From: Burkholderiales bacterium
Lineage (GTDB): Bacteria; Pseudomonadota; Gammaproteobacteria; Burkholderiales; Burkholderiaceae_C
Direction: 5' to 3'
NCBI GenBank assembly: GCA_947453625.1
Contig: CANGHK010000006.1
Location: 1 to 64,000 of the forward strand
Length of the DNA: 64,000 nt
The notes below the pieces were generated by a model. That model saw only the letters and a list, made by a program, of their open reading frames with translations. It did no database searches and was not told the DNA's origin. Below, piece by piece: positions 48,032-56,568 of this stretch. Positions within the stretch are counted from its first letter, which is position 1; the number at the start of each line of letters is the position of its first letter. The translations under genes and the position numbers were made by a program.

Positions 48032-49210
48032 TCAGAGCCGCTCGATGATCGTCACGTTGGCCAGTCCACCGCCCTCGCACATCGTCTGCAGGCCGTAACG
48101 GCCGCCGCGCGCGATCAGTCCGTGCAACAGCGTGGTCATCAGCTTGGCGCCGCTGCCGCCCAGCGGGTGGCCGAGCGCGATCGCGCCGCCGTTGACGTTG
48201 AGCTTGGCCGGGTCAGCGCCGGTGGCCTGCAACCAAGCCACCGGCACCGAGGCGAAGGCTTCGTTGACCTCGAACAAGTCGATGTCGTTGATCGACATGC
48301 CGGCCTTCTTCAGCGCATGGGCGGTGGCCGGGATAGGCGTCTCGAGCATCACCACCGGGTCGCCGCCTATCACCGTCATGTGGTGGACGCGGGCCAATGG
48401 CTTCAGGCCCAGTGCCTTCAGACCGCGCTCGCTGACCACCATCAGGCCGGCCGCGCCGTCGCAGATCTGGCTGGCGTTGGCCGCCGTGCAGACGCCGCCT
48501 TCCTGCAGCAGCTTGACGCCGCCTATGCTGGCCAGCGAAGCGTCGAAGCGTATGCCTTCGTCGGCGCCGTGCATCTCGCCTGTCGCAGTGCCGTCGTTCA
48601 TGCGCACGGCCAGCGGCAGGATCTCGGCCGCAAACGCGCCGGACTGGGTCGCGGCAATCGCCCGCTGGTGGCTTTGCAGCGCGTAGGCATCGACATGGTC
48701 ACGCGTCAGGCCATATTTCTTGGCCACCATCTCGGCGCCTATGAACTGGCTGAACTGCACGCCGGGGTAGCGCAGCGCCATGTTGGGGCTGACGTAAAAC
48801 CCCATGCCGGCCTTGGCCGCCAGCGAGCTGGGCAGGCCCATGGGCACCCGCGACATGCTCTCGACGCCAGCGGCGATCACCACGTCCATGCTGCCAGCCA
48901 TCACCGCCTGGGCCGCAAAATGCAGCGCCTGCTGCGACGAGCCGCATTGCCTGTCGACCGAGGTGGCAGGCACCGACTCGGGCAGCTTGGACGCCATCAC
49001 CGCGTTGCGCGCGATGTTGACCGCCTGCTCGCCGGCCTGGCCCACGCAGCCCATGATCACGTCCTCGACCAGCGCCGGGTCGCAGCCGGTGCGCTTGATC
49101 AGTTCGTCGAGCACGCTGGCGGCCAGGTCGGCCGGGTGCCAGCCCGAGAGTTTGCCGTTGCGTTTGCCGCCGGCGGTGCGCACGGCGGCGACGATGAAGG
49201 CTTCAGCCAT
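48032..49210 (-). CDS. Acetyl-CoA acetyltransferase / 3-ketoacyl-CoA thiolase
   Basis: The 392-residue type II thiolase has nucleophilic Cys89 in SVDRQCGSSQQALHFAAQ, then NEAFASVP, NGGAIALGHPLGGSGAKL and the second cysteine in LQTMCEGGGLANV. The QCGSSQQA motif is seen in FadA/steroid-type thiolases rather than in PcaF. The start is MAEAFIVAAVRTAGGKRNG. It is the first gene of a four-gene minus-strand operon with APH kinase, DUF6285 and enoyl-CoA hydratase, probably for degrading some medium or branched acyl-CoA. Divergent from the SNF2 gene. Confidence 0.88.
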   Translation of the reverse strand: MAEAFIVAAVRTAGGKRNGKLSGWHPADLAASVLDELIKRTGCDPALVEDVIMGCVGQAGEQAVNIARNAVMASKLPESVPATSVDRQCGSSQQALHFAAQAVMAGSMDVVIAAGVESMSRVPMGLPSSLAAKAGMGFYVSPNMALRYPGVQFSQFIGAEMVAKKYGLTRDHVDAYALQSHQRAIAATQSGAFAAEILPLAVRMNDGTATGEMHGADEGIRFDASLASIGGVKLLQEGGVCTAANASQICDGAAGLMVVSERGLKALGLKPLARVHHMTVIGGDPVVMLETPIPATAHALKKAGMSINDIDLFEVNEAFASVPVAWLQATGADPAKLNVNGGAIALGHPLGGSGAKLMTTLLHGLIARGGRYGLQTMCEGGGLANVTIIERL

Positions 49211-49303
49211 GGAATCACTCCTGAGTTTGATCGCCTGGGATTGTTCGCCGCTGGCGCGGGCGGCGCACTCGTCGGAAGCGATGATTCCGGCGCCGGCCCA
49301 CCC

Positions 49304-49309
49304 GACAAT
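49304..49309 (+). promoter_or_regulatory. Candidate leaderless -10 element of the SNF2 gene
   Basis: GACAAT ends 7 nt before the ATG at 49317. It argues for that start over in-frame ATGs at 49281 and 49308. Confidence 0.4.
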
Positions 49310-49316
49310 GCGGTCC

Positions 49317-51716
49317 ATGCCCTCGCCACCCAGCCACAGGCTGATCCTGCAGACCCTGGACCGCGGCGACGGCCTGCTCGGCCTGCGGCCCTGCGGCCCG
49401 GTGCTGCCGCCGGCGCGCACGCCGCTGTTCGGTGCACGCGGGCCGCGGGTGACGGTGGCGCGACTGGGCTGGGGCCCGGCGACGCCGCGCCCGCCTTCGC
49501 CCCAGCCCGCGCCGGAGCAAGAAGCCGCTGCCCTGGTCCGCCTGCGCGCCGCCGGCCTGCACCCGCTGCCGGCCGAGGCGCTGCAGTGGCGTGGCGAGGC
49601 CTCCCCGCTACCCGCCGGCGAGCCGCTGTGGAGCCTGGTGCGCGAGACCGACTTCGGCGATTTCTGGGCCGACGCCCTGCCCGCTTTGCAGGCCGAGGGC
49701 TGGCTGATCGAGTTGCTGCCCGGCTTCGCCCATGCCAGCCTGCCGGTGAGCCAGTGGCAGATCGCGTTGCAACCGCTGACCTCGCCGCGCGGCATGGGCT
49801 CGTGGATGCTCAGCCTGGGCGTGACGCTGCAGACCCGCGACGGCAGCGAGACGCTCGACCTGGTGCCGCTGCTGGCGCGCCTGATCAACCGCGACCGGCG
49901 CTGGACCGACGCGCAGGCGCTGGAATCCATCCCCGACGACGCGCTGATCCGCCTGCACCTGCCGGGCGGCCGCCACATCGACGCCGAGGCCGCGCCGCTG
50001 AAGGCCATCACCCGGGCGCTGGTCGATTTGCTGACCCAGCCGCGGCGCCGCAAGCAGGACGGGCTGCTGCTCTCTTCCTGGGATGCGCAGCGGCTGGCCT
50101 TGCTGCGCGCGGGCCTGAGGGACGTGATGGCGAGCCACCCCAGCGCGCGCCTCGACTGGGCGCTGCAGGGCGACGCCGGGCTGCAATGGCTGGATGCGCA
50201 GTCCAAAGCCAGCCCGCTGCGCGCGGTCGAGCCCCCGGCAGGCCTGGACATCACGCTGCGGCCCTACCAGCGCGACGGCCTGGCCTGGCTGCAGCACCTG
50301 CGCGCGCACCAGTTGGCCGGCATCCTGGCCGACGACATGGGTCTCGGAAAAACCGCGCAGGCCCTGGCCCACCTGCTGGTCGAGCAGCAAGCCGGCAGGC
50401 TGGACCGCCCAGCGCTGATCGTCGCACCCGCCTCGCTGATCTTCAACTGGCAGGCCGAGGCGGCCAGGGTGGCGCCGGCGCTCAAGTTGCTGACACTGCA
50501 AGGCCCGCAGCGCGCCGCCGACATCGCCAGGATGGCAACGGCCGACGTCGTGCTGACCAGCTACCCGCTGCTGTGGCGCGACGCGATGGCGCTGCAGCGC
50601 CAGCCCTGGCACCTGGTGGTGCTCGACGAGGCGCAGATGGTCAAGAACGCCGGCAGCCGAACCGCCACCGCCGCGCGCCGGCTGAAAGCAAGGCATCGCC
50701 TGTGCCTGACCGGCACGCCGATGGAAAACCACTTGGGCGAGCTGTGGGCGCAGTTCCACTTCCTGCTGCCGGGCTACCTGGGCGATGCGCGCAGTTTCCA
50801 GCGCGACTGGCGCACGCCCATCGAGAAAAACGGCGAGACGCTGCGCGCGCAGTTGCTGGCGCAGCGGGTGCGGCCCTTCATCCTGCGCCGCCGCAAGGCC
50901 GAGGTGGCGACCGAGTTGCCGCCGCTGACCGAACAGATCCACCGCCTGGCGCTGGCCGGCCGCCAGCGATTGCTCTACGAGAGCGTGCGGCTGGCCGCCG
51001 ACGAGCAGGTGCGGCGCATCCTGGCCAAGCAGAAGTTTTCGGGCGCGATGGTCAGCATCCTCGATGCGCTGCTCAAGCTGCGCCAGGCCTGCAACGACCC
51101 GCGGCTGCTCGACGCCCCCGGGCCGGGCGAACTGGCCGGCCCCGACATCGGCGCTTTTGAGGGCAGCAGCGCCAAGATCGCCTGGCTGCGCGAGACCCTG
51201 CCCACGCTGGTGGACGAGGGCCGGCGCATCCTGGTGTTCTCGCAGTTCACCCGCATGCTGCGGCTGGTCGAGCCCGAACTGCGCGCACTGCGGCTGGACT
51301 GGCTGACGCTGACCGGCGACACGCCCACGGCAGCGCGCGGCGCCACGGTGGCGAAATTCCAGCGGGGCGCCGCGCCGATCTTTCTGGTCAGCCTGAAAGC
51401 CGGTGGCGTCGGACTGAACCTGACCGCCGCCGACACCGTCGTCCACCTCGACCCCTGGTGGAACCCTGCCGTCGAGCAACAGGCCAGCGCGCGCGCCCAC
51501 CGCATAGGCCAGGACAAGCCGGTCACCGTCTATCGGCTGGTGGTGGCCGGCAGCATCGAGGAGCGGCTGCTGGCGCTGCAGGCGCGCAAGGCGGCGCTGG
51601 CCGAGGCGGTGCTGGGCAAAGGAGTGGATGGCGCGGGCGATGCCGATGCGCGCTTCGACCTGGCCGACCTGCAGTCCTTGCTCGCGCCGCTGGACCCGCC
51701 AGCCGCGCCAGCCTGA
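49317..51716 (+). CDS. SNF2-family DEAD/H helicase-like ATPase
   Basis: The 799-residue protein has an N-terminal non-conserved third, then the SNF2 ATPase: YQRDGLAWLQHLRAHQLAGILADDMGLGKTAQALAHLL (motif I), LIVAPASLIFNW (Ia), LVVLDEAQMVKNAGSRTATAARRL (II, DEAQ), LCLTGTPMENHLGELWAQFHFLLPGYLG (III), ILVFSQFTRML (IV), FLVSLKAGGVGLNLTAADTVVHLDPWWNPAVEQQASARAHRIGQ (V/VI). It is a dsDNA translocase; the bacterial role is not defined (transcription recycling or stress). The usual N-terminal SWIM zinc finger of many bacterial SNF2 proteins is not seen. The C-terminus is short and proline-rich. Confidence 0.9.
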   Translation: MPSPPSHRLILQTLDRGDGLLGLRPCGPVLPPARTPLFGARGPRVTVARLGWGPATPRPPSPQPAPEQEAAALVRLRAAGLHPLPAEALQWRGEASPLPAGEPLWSLVRETDFGDFWADALPALQAEGWLIELLPGFAHASLPVSQWQIALQPLTSPRGMGSWMLSLGVTLQTRDGSETLDLVPLLARLINRDRRWTDAQALESIPDDALIRLHLPGGRHIDAEAAPLKAITRALVDLLTQPRRRKQDGLLLSSWDAQRLALLRAGLRDVMASHPSARLDWALQGDAGLQWLDAQSKASPLRAVEPPAGLDITLRPYQRDGLAWLQHLRAHQLAGILADDMGLGKTAQALAHLLVEQQAGRLDRPALIVAPASLIFNWQAEAARVAPALKLLTLQGPQRAADIARMATADVVLTSYPLLWRDAMALQRQPWHLVVLDEAQMVKNAGSRTATAARRLKARHRLCLTGTPMENHLGELWAQFHFLLPGYLGDARSFQRDWRTPIEKNGETLRAQLLAQRVRPFILRRRKAEVATELPPLTEQIHRLALAGRQRLLYESVRLAADEQVRRILAKQKFSGAMVSILDALLKLRQACNDPRLLDAPGPGELAGPDIGAFEGSSAKIAWLRETLPTLVDEGRRILVFSQFTRMLRLVEPELRALRLDWLTLTGDTPTAARGATVAKFQRGAAPIFLVSLKAGGVGLNLTAADTVVHLDPWWNPAVEQQASARAHRIGQDKPVTVYRLVVAGSIEERLLALQARKAALAEAVLGKGVDGAGDADARFDLADLQSLLAPLDPPAAPA

Positions 51717-51839: not shown

Positions 51840-51917
51840 ATGGCCCAGTACGTTTTGTCGAAACAATTGCCCGCCTGCGGCGGACCGGCCTCACTTCGTT
51901 CACCCGGAGCCCTGTAA
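51840..51917 (+). CDS. Leader ORF mimicking the EttA N-terminus (25 codons)
   Basis: This ORF starts ATG, encodes MAQYVLSKQLPACGGPASLR and ends with TAA at 51915-51917, 2 nt before the ettA ATG, so ribosomes ending here could restart on ettA. Its first six codons match those of ettA except for four third-position changes; three are silent and the fourth changes Phe to Leu. A GGAG at 51905-51908 within it can serve ettA. Whether it is translated is not known. Confidence 0.33.
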   Translation: MAQYVLSKQLPACGGPASLRSPGAL

Positions 51918-51919
51918 CC

Positions 51920-51937
<18 letters not shown>
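51840..51937 (+). repeat. Diverged duplication of the ettA start flanking a short insert
   Basis: ATGGCCCAGTACGTTTTG (51840-51857) and ATGGCGCAATATGTTTTC (51920-51937) are paired, 14 of 18 identical. The 62 nt between them contain a small hairpin CCGCC-TGC-GGCGG (51871-51883). The arrangement parallels that at accC, though here the two copies have drifted only at third codon positions. Confidence 0.65.
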
Positions 51938-53700: not shown

Positions 53701-56568
53701 ATGCCCGCTCTCCTGCCTGTCTGCCTCTCCCTGAACTGGCGCGCCAGCGCGCTGGCCGCGGTGCTTGCCCTGGCCGGCTGTGCCACGCCCCCGGTGGGCA
53801 CCGCGGCAGGGACGAGCGGACCTGCCGCGGCCTCGGCCAGCGTGGCCGTTGCGCAGCCAGCGCGCGCGCCAGCGACCGCCTCCGCGCCCAGCAGCATGGC
53901 ATCGGCACCGCTGGCACCGGGCCAGCCTCCGCCGTTCGCCCAGGTGATCAAGTCCGCCCGCAAGATCGACGGCCTGTTCACCACCTGGCAGAAGGATGAA
54001 AAGGTCTGGCTGGAACTGCGGCCCGAGGATTTCAACCAGCCCTTCTTCTTCTCGCCCAAGCTGAGCAGCGGCATAGGCGAGTCGCCGTTCTTCGGCGGCG
54101 CGATGCTGCCCTCGCCCCGGCTGGTGATGTTCCGCCGCCTGCACAACATGGTGCAACTGCTGGCGATCAACGGCCAACAGGTGGCGCGCGGCGGCACGCC
54201 CGAGGCGCGCGCCGTCGCGGCAGCGATATCGCCTAGCCTGCTGGCGTCCAACCCGGTGGCCAGCCAGCCCCAGCCCGAGCGCAAGACGGTGCTGGTCGAC
54301 GCCAGCGCGATGTTCGGCGCCGACCTGCTCGGCCTGGGCGCGGCGCTGCAGCGCAGCTACCGCCAGGCTTACAGCCTGGACGCACGCAACTCGGCCATCA
54401 CCGCGGTGCGCGGCAAGCCTGACCTGCTGGTGCTGGAGGTGATCAAGCACTTCGCCACCGCGTCCATCGCCACCGCGCAGCCCGGGGCGCTGCCCGGCGC
54501 GCCGGTGCCCACCCTGCCCAGCGGACTGCCCGACCCGCGCAGCCTGTTCCTCGGCCTGCACTACTCGCTGGCGCGCCTGCCGGCCCAGGTGATGGCGGCG
54601 CGGCAGGCCGATGCGCGCATAGGCCATTTCGTCTCGGTGGTCGACGACTTCAGCGACGACCTGGCGCGCAGCCCGCGCCAGCGCTTCGTCAACCGCTGGC
54701 GACTGGAGAAAAAAGACCGCCCCCAGGCGGCGCTGCCGCCGCCCCCCAAGGGGGTTGAGCAAAGTGGCCAAGCAACATTTGCTCAAGACCCGTCGGCTGG
54801 CCTGTCCGAGCCGGTCAAGCCCATCACCTACTGGCTGGACCGCAACATCCCGCTGAAGTACCGCGCGACCCTGACCGCCGGCGTGCTGGAGTGGAACAAG
54901 GCCTTCGAGGCCATAGGCTTCAAGAACGCGATCGCCGTCAGACAGCAGGCCGACGATGCCGACTTCGACACGCTGGATGCGGGCGTGGCCTCGCTGCGCT
55001 GGATGGTCAACCGCGAACCGGCGTTCGGCGCCATCGGGCCCAGCCATGTCGACCCGCGCAGCGGCGAGATCCTGGACGCCGACATCGGCATCGAGAGCCT
55101 GTCCTCGCGCAACCGGCGCAGCCTGCGGGCCCAGGTGCTGGGGGGCTCGACCGCCACCGATTGGGCAGGCTTGCTGCAGGTCGGCGGCGGCATGGGCGGC
55201 GCGGCGGCCGAAGCCACGACGACCTGGCCAGGCAGCACGGCGCAGGAGGGCCTGCCCTGCCAGGCCGCCGACCTGGCCGCCGACCAGTTGGCCTACGGCC
55301 TGGACCTGCTGGCCGCGCGCGGCGAGATCGAGCCCGACAGCCCCGAGGCCCAGCGCTTCGTGCTCGACTACCTGAAGAACGTGGCGATGCACGAGGTCGG
55401 CCACACGTTGGGGCTGCGCCACAACTTCCGCGCCTCGCACGCGTTCAGTGAGCAGCAGGTCAGCGACCCCGAGTTCACCCGCAGCCAGGCCTTCACCGGG
55501 TCGGTGATGGAATATGCCGCGATCAACCTGGCGCGGCCGACCGAGCCGGCGGTAACGCCGTTCCAGACCACGCTCGGGCCTTACGACTACTGGGCGATCG
55601 AATATGCCTACAGACCGCTGCCCGCCGGGCAGGAAGCCGAGGCGCTGTCGCGCATCGCCGGGCGCAGCGGCGAGCCGGCACTGGCCTTCGGCACCGACGA
55701 GGACAACTTCCTGGGCATTGACCCCGACGCGCTGCAGATGGACCTGGGCGACGACGTGCTGGCCTTCGCCGCCCGGCGCTTCGACATCGCGCAGGACTTG
55801 TTCCAGCGCCAGGAGAGCCGCAGCCTCAAGCCCGGCGAGGACTATGCCGGCCTGCGCCGCGCACTCGGCTACGCAGTGATGGACGCGGGCCGCGCCGCCG
55901 GCATCCTGCTGCGCCAGATCGGCGGCGTGCGCACGCTGCGCGACTTTCCCAACACCGGGCGCGACCCGCTGCAGCCGCTGCCCGCGGCGCGCCAACGGGC
56001 GGCGCTGCAGATGCTGTCGCAGCGCGTGCTGGCCGCAGGCAGCCTGACGGCGAGCCCGGCGCTGCTGCGCAAGCTGGCACCCGACTATTTCGAGCGCAGC
56101 GAAAGCCAGGGCAGCACGCCGACCGACTACCCGCTGGCCCAGAGCGTGCTCGACCTGCAGCGTGCGCTGCTGAACCGGCTGATGAGCGACAGCCTGGCCG
56201 CGCGCCTGCTCGACAACGCCGGCAAGCTGAGCCCGCCCGAACAGCCCTTGCGCCTGGGCGAGCTCTACACCCGGCTCGAAGCCGATGTGTGGGGCGAATT
56301 GGCCGGCCGCGGCGACATCACGCCGCCGCGCCGCGAGTTGCAGCGCGAGCATGTCAACCGGCTCGCGGCACTGGTGCTGCGGCCCGGCGCCTTGTCGCGC
56401 AGCGATGCCCGTTCGCTGGTGCGCAGCCGCGCCGCCACGCTGGCCAAGCGTATCGAGCAGGCGAGCAGCCGCACCGATCTCGGCGCCGAGGCGCAAGCCC
56501 ACCTGCAGGACTGCGCCGAGAGCCTGCGCAGCGCGCTGGCCGCACCGCTGGCGCGGGCCGGGGTTTGA
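53701..56568 (+). CDS. Zinc-dependent metalloprotease lipoprotein (DUF4953/DUF5117 type)
   Basis: The 955-residue exported protein has a signal with lipobox LAGC (about residues 24-27), a 50-residue alanine/proline linker, an N-terminal beta region (IKSARKIDGLFTTWQKDEKVWLELRPEDFNQPFFFSPK) and the metzincin zinc site HEVGHTLGLRH (His564, His568, His574) with SVMEYAAINLARP as the Met-turn. PVKPITYWLDRNIPLKYRATLTAGVLEWNKAFEAIGF is characteristic. A 24-codon proline-rich insert (54718-54789) interrupts the segment before SAGLSEPVKP. Substrate unknown; likely an outer-membrane-anchored protease. Confidence 0.88.
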   Translation: MPALLPVCLSLNWRASALAAVLALAGCATPPVGTAAGTSGPAAASASVAVAQPARAPATASAPSSMASAPLAPGQPPPFAQVIKSARKIDGLFTTWQKDEKVWLELRPEDFNQPFFFSPKLSSGIGESPFFGGAMLPSPRLVMFRRLHNMVQLLAINGQQVARGGTPEARAVAAAISPSLLASNPVASQPQPERKTVLVDASAMFGADLLGLGAALQRSYRQAYSLDARNSAITAVRGKPDLLVLEVIKHFATASIATAQPGALPGAPVPTLPSGLPDPRSLFLGLHYSLARLPAQVMAARQADARIGHFVSVVDDFSDDLARSPRQRFVNRWRLEKKDRPQAALPPPPKGVEQSGQATFAQDPSAGLSEPVKPITYWLDRNIPLKYRATLTAGVLEWNKAFEAIGFKNAIAVRQQADDADFDTLDAGVASLRWMVNREPAFGAIGPSHVDPRSGEILDADIGIESLSSRNRRSLRAQVLGGSTATDWAGLLQVGGGMGGAAAEATTTWPGSTAQEGLPCQAADLAADQLAYGLDLLAARGEIEPDSPEAQRFVLDYLKNVAMHEVGHTLGLRHNFRASHAFSEQQVSDPEFTRSQAFTGSVMEYAAINLARPTEPAVTPFQTTLGPYDYWAIEYAYRPLPAGQEAEALSRIAGRSGEPALAFGTDEDNFLGIDPDALQMDLGDDVLAFAARRFDIAQDLFQRQESRSLKPGEDYAGLRRALGYAVMDAGRAAGILLRQIGGVRTLRDFPNTGRDPLQPLPAARQRAALQMLSQRVLAAGSLTASPALLRKLAPDYFERSESQGSTPTDYPLAQSVLDLQRALLNRLMSDSLAARLLDNAGKLSPPEQPLRLGELYTRLEADVWGELAGRGDITPPRRELQREHVNRLAALVLRPGALSRSDARSLVRSRAATLAKRIEQASSRTDLGAEAQAHLQDCAESLRSALAAPLARAGV
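54718..54789 (+). repeat. In-frame dispersed-repeat insert within the metalloprotease gene
   Basis: The segment encodes RPQAALPPPPKGVEQSGQAT and four more residues between KKD and PSAGLSEPV, and is flanked by a repeated GAC codon. Its CGCTGCCGCCGCCCCCC core is identical to that of the boxA insert (32245-32325) over 17 nt and continues AAGGGG against GAGGGG. Confidence 0.65.

Follow-up and report, generated by a model that had tools for sequence, protein, structure and literature searches.

A small folded cassette in the ettA coding start of scattered Burkholderiales, a candidate coupling leader

Why would the gene for a translation factor be preceded, with hardly a gap, by a short reading frame that opens with the gene's own first codons? 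EttA throttles early elongation, and such an arrangement at its gene, ettA, occurs in a 64,000-nucleotide (nt) stretch of DNA from a Burkholderiales bacterium (GenBank assembly GCA_947453625.1, contig CANGHK010000006.1, positions 1 to 64,000), referred to here as the window. The identity of the gene product as EttA was established by a match to NCBIfam NF008775 with 972.5 bits (cut-off, 599). A 25-codon leader lies upstream, and the dinucleotide CC alone separates its stop codon from the ettA ATG (Table 1). Codons 1 to 6 read ATG GCC CAG TAC GTT TTG in the leader and ATG GCG CAA TAT GTT TTC in ettA. Our reading of the window confirmed what a first-pass annotation had described, namely, that the leader repeats the first six codons of ettA and departs from them only at the third base of four codons, of which three keep their amino acid and one exchanges Leu for Phe.

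Table 1. Features at the ettA locus, numbered from the first letter of the window
Feature	Position	Strand	Remarks
ORF 5' of the leader, SNF2-type helicase	48804..51716		Start position as ORF only
Leader ORF, 25 codons	51840..51917	+	MAQYVLSKQLPACGGPASLRSPGAL; stop TAA at 51915-51917; stop at ettA start kept in 22/23 loci
Left copy of ettA start, host-type	51840..51856	+	0-2 differences in 17 nt from empty starts in ten comparisons at other loci
Insert body, missing from empty relatives	51858..51919	+	Match to covariance model R1 at 51858-51916, 73.9 bits
Closing stem P0, 5' strand GAAACAATTGC	51860..51870	+	Pairs with 51925-51937
Hairpin 1, CCGCC-TGC-GGCGG	51871..51883	+	CCGCC/GGCGG with three-base loop; covarying stem
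Hairpin 2, CCGG arms at 51885-51888 and 51904-51907, two-pair apical stem in loop	51885..51907	+	Covarying stem
Shine-Dalgarno-like GGAG of ettA	51906..51909	+	Overlaps 3' arm of hairpin 2
Hairpin 3, GCC..GGC, contains leader stop and ettA AUG	51909..51924	+	No double changes in helix
Right copy, the actual ettA start, codons 1-6	51920..51937	+	51925-51937 is the P0 3' strand
ettA, ABC-F energy-dependent translational throttle protein, 554 aa	51920..53584	+	NCBIfam NF008775
Gene 3' of ettA, Met-zincin with DUF5117/DUF5118 domains	53701..56568		

We observed that this locus is one case of a recurrent insert, 76 to 84 nt long, that follows ettA codon 5 in scattered Burkholderiales; loci with the insert are referred to here as filled and those lacking it as empty. 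With all sources merged, the insert was complete in 23 genomes, decayed in three (G006, G013, and G497), and cut by a contig end in one. Among 97 genomes of four genera with a readable ettA start, 12 carried the complete insert and 81 were empty. In the window's own genus, the ettA start was matched in 15 of 21 genomes, four of them complete (G000, G010, G012, and G014), two decayed (G006 and G013), and nine empty, a sixteenth match (G008) being a 58-base piece elsewhere that stands outside the 15. Matches were obtained in 45 of 47 genomes of the Acidovorax-like g101 (4 filled and 41 empty), 23 of 26 of g30 (1 filled and 22 empty), and 14 of 15 of g119 (3 filled, 1 truncated where its contig ends, 1 decayed, and 9 empty). 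The 40 nt upstream of filled and empty starts were identical at 40/40 positions in the pairs L144/L145, L153/L155, and L091/L110 and at 39/40 in L121/L122. Loci with an unmatched start motif (L015, L018, L022, L025 to L029, and L031) were left out of every tree and table, and L177, judged by eye only, was left out of the trees.

A strict pattern of the arrangement, run against a named genome collection, gave 17 matches, and since all 17 lay at an ettA start, the arrangement goes beyond chance. By title, the matched sequences were from Burkholderiales, except for one MAG labeled 'Proteobacteria bacterium'; carriers included Acidovorax sp. Leaf78, Polaromonas jejuensis, a Ramlibacter MAG, Aquabacterium commune, and several Rubrivivax MAGs. 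Comparison of upstream regions thus bore out the expectation that leaders beginning with MAQYV recur before ettA in relatives. The insert body itself forms one homologous family across genera. Of 399 family genomes, 7 gave strong matches (≥55.7 bits) to a covariance model of this body, always at ettA and in one genome as two tandem copies, and 235 genomes drawn from across the order yielded a single strong copy, the window's own; both scans used stricter filters, with which weak matches are lost. The 14 carrier genomes contained 15 strong copies, all at ettA. Away from ettA, the model found no strong copy in these 14 genomes (the next best match scored 25.1 bits), and they hold no dispersed copies above background of the kind expected of a dispersed repeat or MITE. 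No second copy was found by blastn in the window's own genome. Weak matches among the 399 genomes (G056, G265, and G302; 25.6 to 28.8 bits) lie, as judged by eye, in other coding regions, and one from the order-wide draw (G596; 33.3 bits) is a terminator-like hairpin, also by eye. Rfam searches returned no match at gathering score for the window stretch, with one sub-threshold match on the minus strand (14.5 bits versus 37.8), and no match up to E 0.5 for five relatives.

The empty loci point to the left of the two starts as the original one. At 72 of them, the first six codons were ATG, GCC or GCT (71/72), CAA or CAG, TAC (67), GTN, and TTC or TTT (64), and in ten filled/empty comparisons, the left copy differed from the empty start at 0 to 2 of 17 nt. 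These comparisons identify the left copy as the former ettA start of the host. The resemblance is not complete, since GCG is commoner in left copies (7/23, including two second tandem copies) than in empty starts (1/72), and their codon 6 reads TTA or TTG in 20/23 cases. The right copy mostly has GCG (15/23), CAG (20), TAT (17), GTT (21), and TTC (22). In 12 filled/empty comparisons, it differed at two to four sites, all of them third positions in codons 2 to 6, with the next ettA difference 20 to 95 nt in. At the place where a MITE might leave a target duplication made from host sequence, the right copy has mostly non-host third positions, paired with the insert. These bases differ because they pair with the insert 5' end; they could have been carried in or selected afterwards. 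This pairing accounts for the third-position pattern in which the annotation had seen selection on the peptide start of the leader, a reading left without support, given that the changes sit in the right copy.

When the window and L052 were folded as RNA and as DNA, the 5' end of the insert, GAAACAACTGC, paired with GCAGTATGTTTTC of the right copy, with two bulged bases. The insert ends are imperfect inverted repeats (11 pairs and two bulged bases), as in a MITE. In the lowest-energy folds, this closing stem, P0, was partial in L050 and absent in L061 and L072. Over 23 copies, 230 of 253 P0 cells (91%) were paired. The same insert 5' end paired with the left copy in 164 of 253 cells (65%) and with randomly drawn empty-site starts in 66.8% on average, the highest of 500 draws reaching 70.4%. 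P0 contained four double changes (shuffle mean, 0.6; 0 of 1,000 shuffles as high). Leader TTG co-occurs with CAA as ettA codon 3 in 3 of 3 loci, a pair of changes silent in leader and ettA alike, and a single TCC codon is matched by GCA.

The remaining helices were assessed in the same manner. In 21 sequences, 9 of the 11 pairs of hairpins 1 and 2 were changed on both sides in a compensatory way, CCTCC/GGAGG being the commonest form of hairpin 2 in relatives, and the further two-pair stem inside the hairpin 2 loop also covaries. Hairpin 3, which links the leader end to the ettA AUGGC, shows zero double changes because one of its strands is the fixed start codon. Compensatory changes back three of the four helices made up by the closing stem and the three hairpins. 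For the whole structure (22 sequences), 90.6% of cells were paired and 13 of 29 pairs had double changes, a count that is slightly low because the MAFFT alignment sets the additional codon of L061 and L068 in the wrong place; none of 500 shuffles was as high, and slid controls reached 38.6 to 47.0%. The single folds of five filled loci were not clearly more stable than shuffles (z of 0.70 for the window, −0.03 for L052, −1.74 for L050, −0.85 for L061, and 0.30 for L072), so that the structural case stands on comparison and not on energy. Exceptions at 14 candidate pairs comprised 11 G-T and 16 A-C in a comparison of RNA with DNA strand, counts that favor neither. The predicted fold covers the ettA Shine-Dalgarno sequence, the AUG, and codons 2 to 6. 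We also noted an unpaired UC on each side of the apical stem in the hairpin 2 loop (A2 columns 60 to 72) in nearly all copies, possibly a site of protein or tertiary contact. The out-of-frame locus L097 was excluded from the codon-constraint, 14-pair exception, P0-pairing, Mantel, and opening-cost analyses; for alignment of the bodies, extra codons of L061, L068, and L082 were removed in the codon, 14-pair, P0, and Mantel analyses, and that of the first G102 copy in the codon, 14-pair, and P0 analyses.

What does the cassette do to ettA? On the filled/empty comparison, it has turned the old ettA start into the start of the 25-codon leader and supplies a second ettA start, a Shine-Dalgarno sequence (in 21 of 23 members), and the leader stop. 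A Shine-Dalgarno match of at least 4 nt precedes ettA in 21/23 filled loci versus 37/87 empty ones. The predicted cost of opening the ettA start region was 17.8 kcal/mol in 22 filled loci versus 10.0 kcal/mol in 72 empty ones, and that of opening the leader start of filled loci was 11.0 kcal/mol. By prediction and covariation, the downstream start is hidden in a way that upstream translation could remove, as expected of a coupled leader. The leader frame is intact in 22 of 23 loci, where it stays open for 25 to 27 codons and where its stop, for which TAA, TAG, and TGA are all used, overlaps the ettA ATG by one nt or ends 0 to 3 nt before it. The adjoining stop and start first described for the window have accordingly been kept in 22 of 23 loci. 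Length changes within the reading frame were 3 nt (first G102 copy), 3 nt (common to L061 and L068), and 6 nt (L082). L097 is out of frame, its G run being one base shorter than that of its sister L101. The G6/G7 run sets the leader frame in this pair (genomes G452 and G456), and the one-G difference may be genuine or may stem from an error in sequencing.

Our preferred reading, held with moderate confidence, is a translational gate in which ribosomes would have to read the leader before ettA could be initiated. Ribosomes would load where ettA was formerly initiated, melt the closing stem and hairpins 1 to 3 as they read through the leader, terminate at the new AUG, and there reinitiate, now on ettA; the new, hidden start would probably open only upon such reading. 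ettA would then not be freely initiated, and EttA synthesis would be gated by completed leader translation. The leader shares EttA's first residues, and a failure of early elongation on it would lower EttA. We infer that ribosome loading, unfolding, and reinitiation probably take place at the ettA leader. A counterpoint to the gate is that 81 of the 97 genomes of the same genera do without the cassette. The earlier proposal that the leader controls ettA thus likely holds, with translational coupling as the means, whereas its idea of stalling on MAQYV draws no support from the sequence.

The cassette may alternatively be a site-specific selfish element, a possibility that we regard as tentative. 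It would be a minimal mobile unit targeting ettA codons 5 and 6, whose replacement start keeps the host alive; some enzyme acting in trans, or recombination of foreign DNA through short homologies, would move it, and fold and frame would be kept for movement and for sparing ettA. In its favor, a quick tree of 99 loci, partly picked as filled and with decayed copies scored as filled, needed 15 filled/empty changes, at least 12 of them forced by starred branches, and the nearest relatives, L144 and L145, differ in state at ∼2% ettA divergence. Insert distances track host distances weakly and not significantly (Mantel r, 0.17; 458 of 5,000 permutations as high; 22 loci). The imperfect inverted-repeat ends would also suit such an element, as would the restriction of changes to two to four third positions in the first 18 nt of ettA in the 12 comparisons. 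Long donor tracts from homologous exchange, considered as another source of these changes, were not seen in the 12 comparisons, a longer tract being possible in the three where the next difference lies at 20 to 26 nt.

Tandem copies, which likewise favor mobility, are found in G102 (L067:2035-2215) and in L063 (L063:5675-5786). The contig of L063 ends within the upstream copy, whose 17 visible nt match the downstream copy exactly, as expected for a recent array. A decayed cassette lies just 5' of ettA in L005 (G013), where a TTGTGAAAC-like unit occurs three times before the remnant and the ettA start has host-type codons. At the sequence level, tandem and decayed copies together show turnover of the cassette, and its mobility is possible.

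Whether filled loci arose by gain or persisted through loss was evaluated by likelihood with 102 loci, 16 of them filled or decayed, from the four carrier genera and six other relatives, a sample that favors loss because carrier-free genera are nearly absent from it. A model with gain and loss fitted best (lnL, −41.66), and gain only fitted worse (−46.96); loss only (−43.39) was not rejected and, against the selfish element, still stands as a history of these loci. The same loci required 21 losses under Dollo and 12 changes under parsimony. The junctions cannot give the direction, because deletion by slippage across the fold would give identical junctions, with the left copy likewise retained. 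Further points against the selfish element are the confinement of strong copies to ettA in the 14 carriers and the 399 family genomes and the outcome of searches for a vehicle: blastn gave no match to a plasmid, phage, or viral carrier, and the tandem/circle junction pattern had no viral match. Viral pattern matches in L076 to L079 reached ≤12.9 bits with the covariance model, and one in L162 lies inside an unrelated gene; these candidates were rejected. Searched for larger elements, the 399 family genomes gave three matches with the 5'-end pattern, all of them known copies, and five with the 3'-end pattern, two known and three in genus g44 without an insert upstream. These g44 loci (L165, L166, and L167) all carry CTGAGTAAGCCATGGCCCAATATGTTTTC at ettA, lack the insert, and have ettA start codons partly like those of the cassette's right copy. 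No recombinase was seen: 76 to 84 nt are too short to encode one, and the neighbors in the window are the SNF2 helicase and the Met-zincin. The cassette may be an ettA-specific mobile element of <85 nt that enters this single site of a housekeeping gene time and again, folded as a single strand with paired ends and carrying a recoded replacement start and a coupling leader that keep the gene expressed, or else a portable translational gate that spreads between genera as gating pays; we offer this pair of origins as a suggestion that is rather doubtful at present.

A leader-peptide attenuator, in which stalling on MAQYV or later in the leader would report the EttA/ATP state and free or hide the ettA start, appears improbable. 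Passages of PMC11282234 describe an action of EttA on the leader peptide MgtL in Escherichia coli, the ettA leader begins like EttA, and the fold is predicted to occlude the ettA start region, all of which would suit an attenuator. However, the leader body gave no clear sign of peptide constraint. Its diversity by codon position was 0.25, 0.26, and 0.31, and its synonymous fraction was 0.383 versus a column-shuffle mean of 0.30 (sd, 0.07; 38 of 300 shuffles as high), the other two frames giving 0.243 and 0.354. Over 23 copies, this amounted to no significant signal of codon-level constraint, and no conserved arrest peptide was found in the 23 leader bodies. MAQYV itself was changed in 4 of 24 copies. 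Stalling on MAQYV, as the annotation had envisaged it, is left without sequence support because the leader body shows no significant codon-level constraint. With the peptide loose and frame and stop kept, it seems that translation through to the leader stop, rather than a peptide, has been maintained.

Ribosome bypassing, with a jump from the left Val or Tyr codon to its right counterpart that skips the folded insert and yields EttA from the leader start, is very unlikely. If formed as predicted for the window and L052, the closing stem would place the two copies near each other, and both copies encode MAQYV in 20/24 cases. Bypassing elements such as T4 gene 60 and the yeast mitochondrial inserts, as covered in passages of PMC5009743, likewise place a folded insert between similar codons. 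In contrast to these, the left copy has no stop after the would-be take-off codon, and the right copy has an independent AUG, with a Shine-Dalgarno match in 21/23; left and right Val codons often differ, and bypassing would not need the kept leader frame and stop. A functionless, neutral tandem duplication, to which the sporadic presence and three decayed copies would conform, is least credible of all in view of the covariation, the frame and stop kept across genera, and the single homologous family formed by the insert bodies.

The gate that we favor has relatives among known systems. Its mechanism is that of a translational coupling leader and as such of a known kind. As in termination-reinitiation coupling at overlapping stop/start pairs (PMC6728339 and PMC12548453), the leader stop and the ettA start overlap (TAATG) or are spaced by 0 to 3 nt, and the downstream start is predicted to be hidden during the time before the upstream reading frame has been read. 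The ettA case differs in that the upstream frame is the gene's own displaced start plus a conserved insert, not a separate gene, and in that the cassette is present or absent between close relatives. Leader control connected with ABC-F proteins, as in msrD (PMC10314930) and MgtL under EttA (PMC11282234), likewise involves a short reading frame before a ribosome-factor gene and a structure that hides a start; the text of PMC11282234 contains neither 'uorf' nor 'autoregul'. Unlike these systems, the ettA cassette has no conserved stalling peptide, and its insert pairs with the coding start itself.

As an insertion, the cassette also resembles several mobile elements. SXT in prfC is an integrative element that replaces the 5' end of a gene. 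Elements of this type likewise give the target gene a new start, whereas the ettA cassette measures 76 to 84 nt and has neither integrase nor cargo. The Rickettsia palindromic element is a small palindromic insert in genes. Palindromic or MITE-like inserts (review, PMC10969869) are likewise small and structured, have imperfect inverted ends, and are tolerated inside a gene. The ettA cassette differs from them in having one target, where it occurs singly or in tandem, and in carrying a replacement gene start.

In searches of open-licence PubMed Central papers, we found no description of an ettA leader and no account of the control of EttA's own synthesis. It is the form of the arrangement that is unusual: a cassette within the coding start makes the old start the leader and draws silent codons of the new start into the pairing. 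Close relatives are thereby set apart by an exact insertion of natural origin, as a result of which ettA lies downstream of a folded leader starting with EttA's own residues, and filled and empty relatives are ready-made strain pairs for probing the effects of EttA dosage. The cassette also raises evolutionary questions, namely, by what route synonymous codons of a conserved protein came to be paired with an insert and in what way so tiny a cassette turns over at one site.
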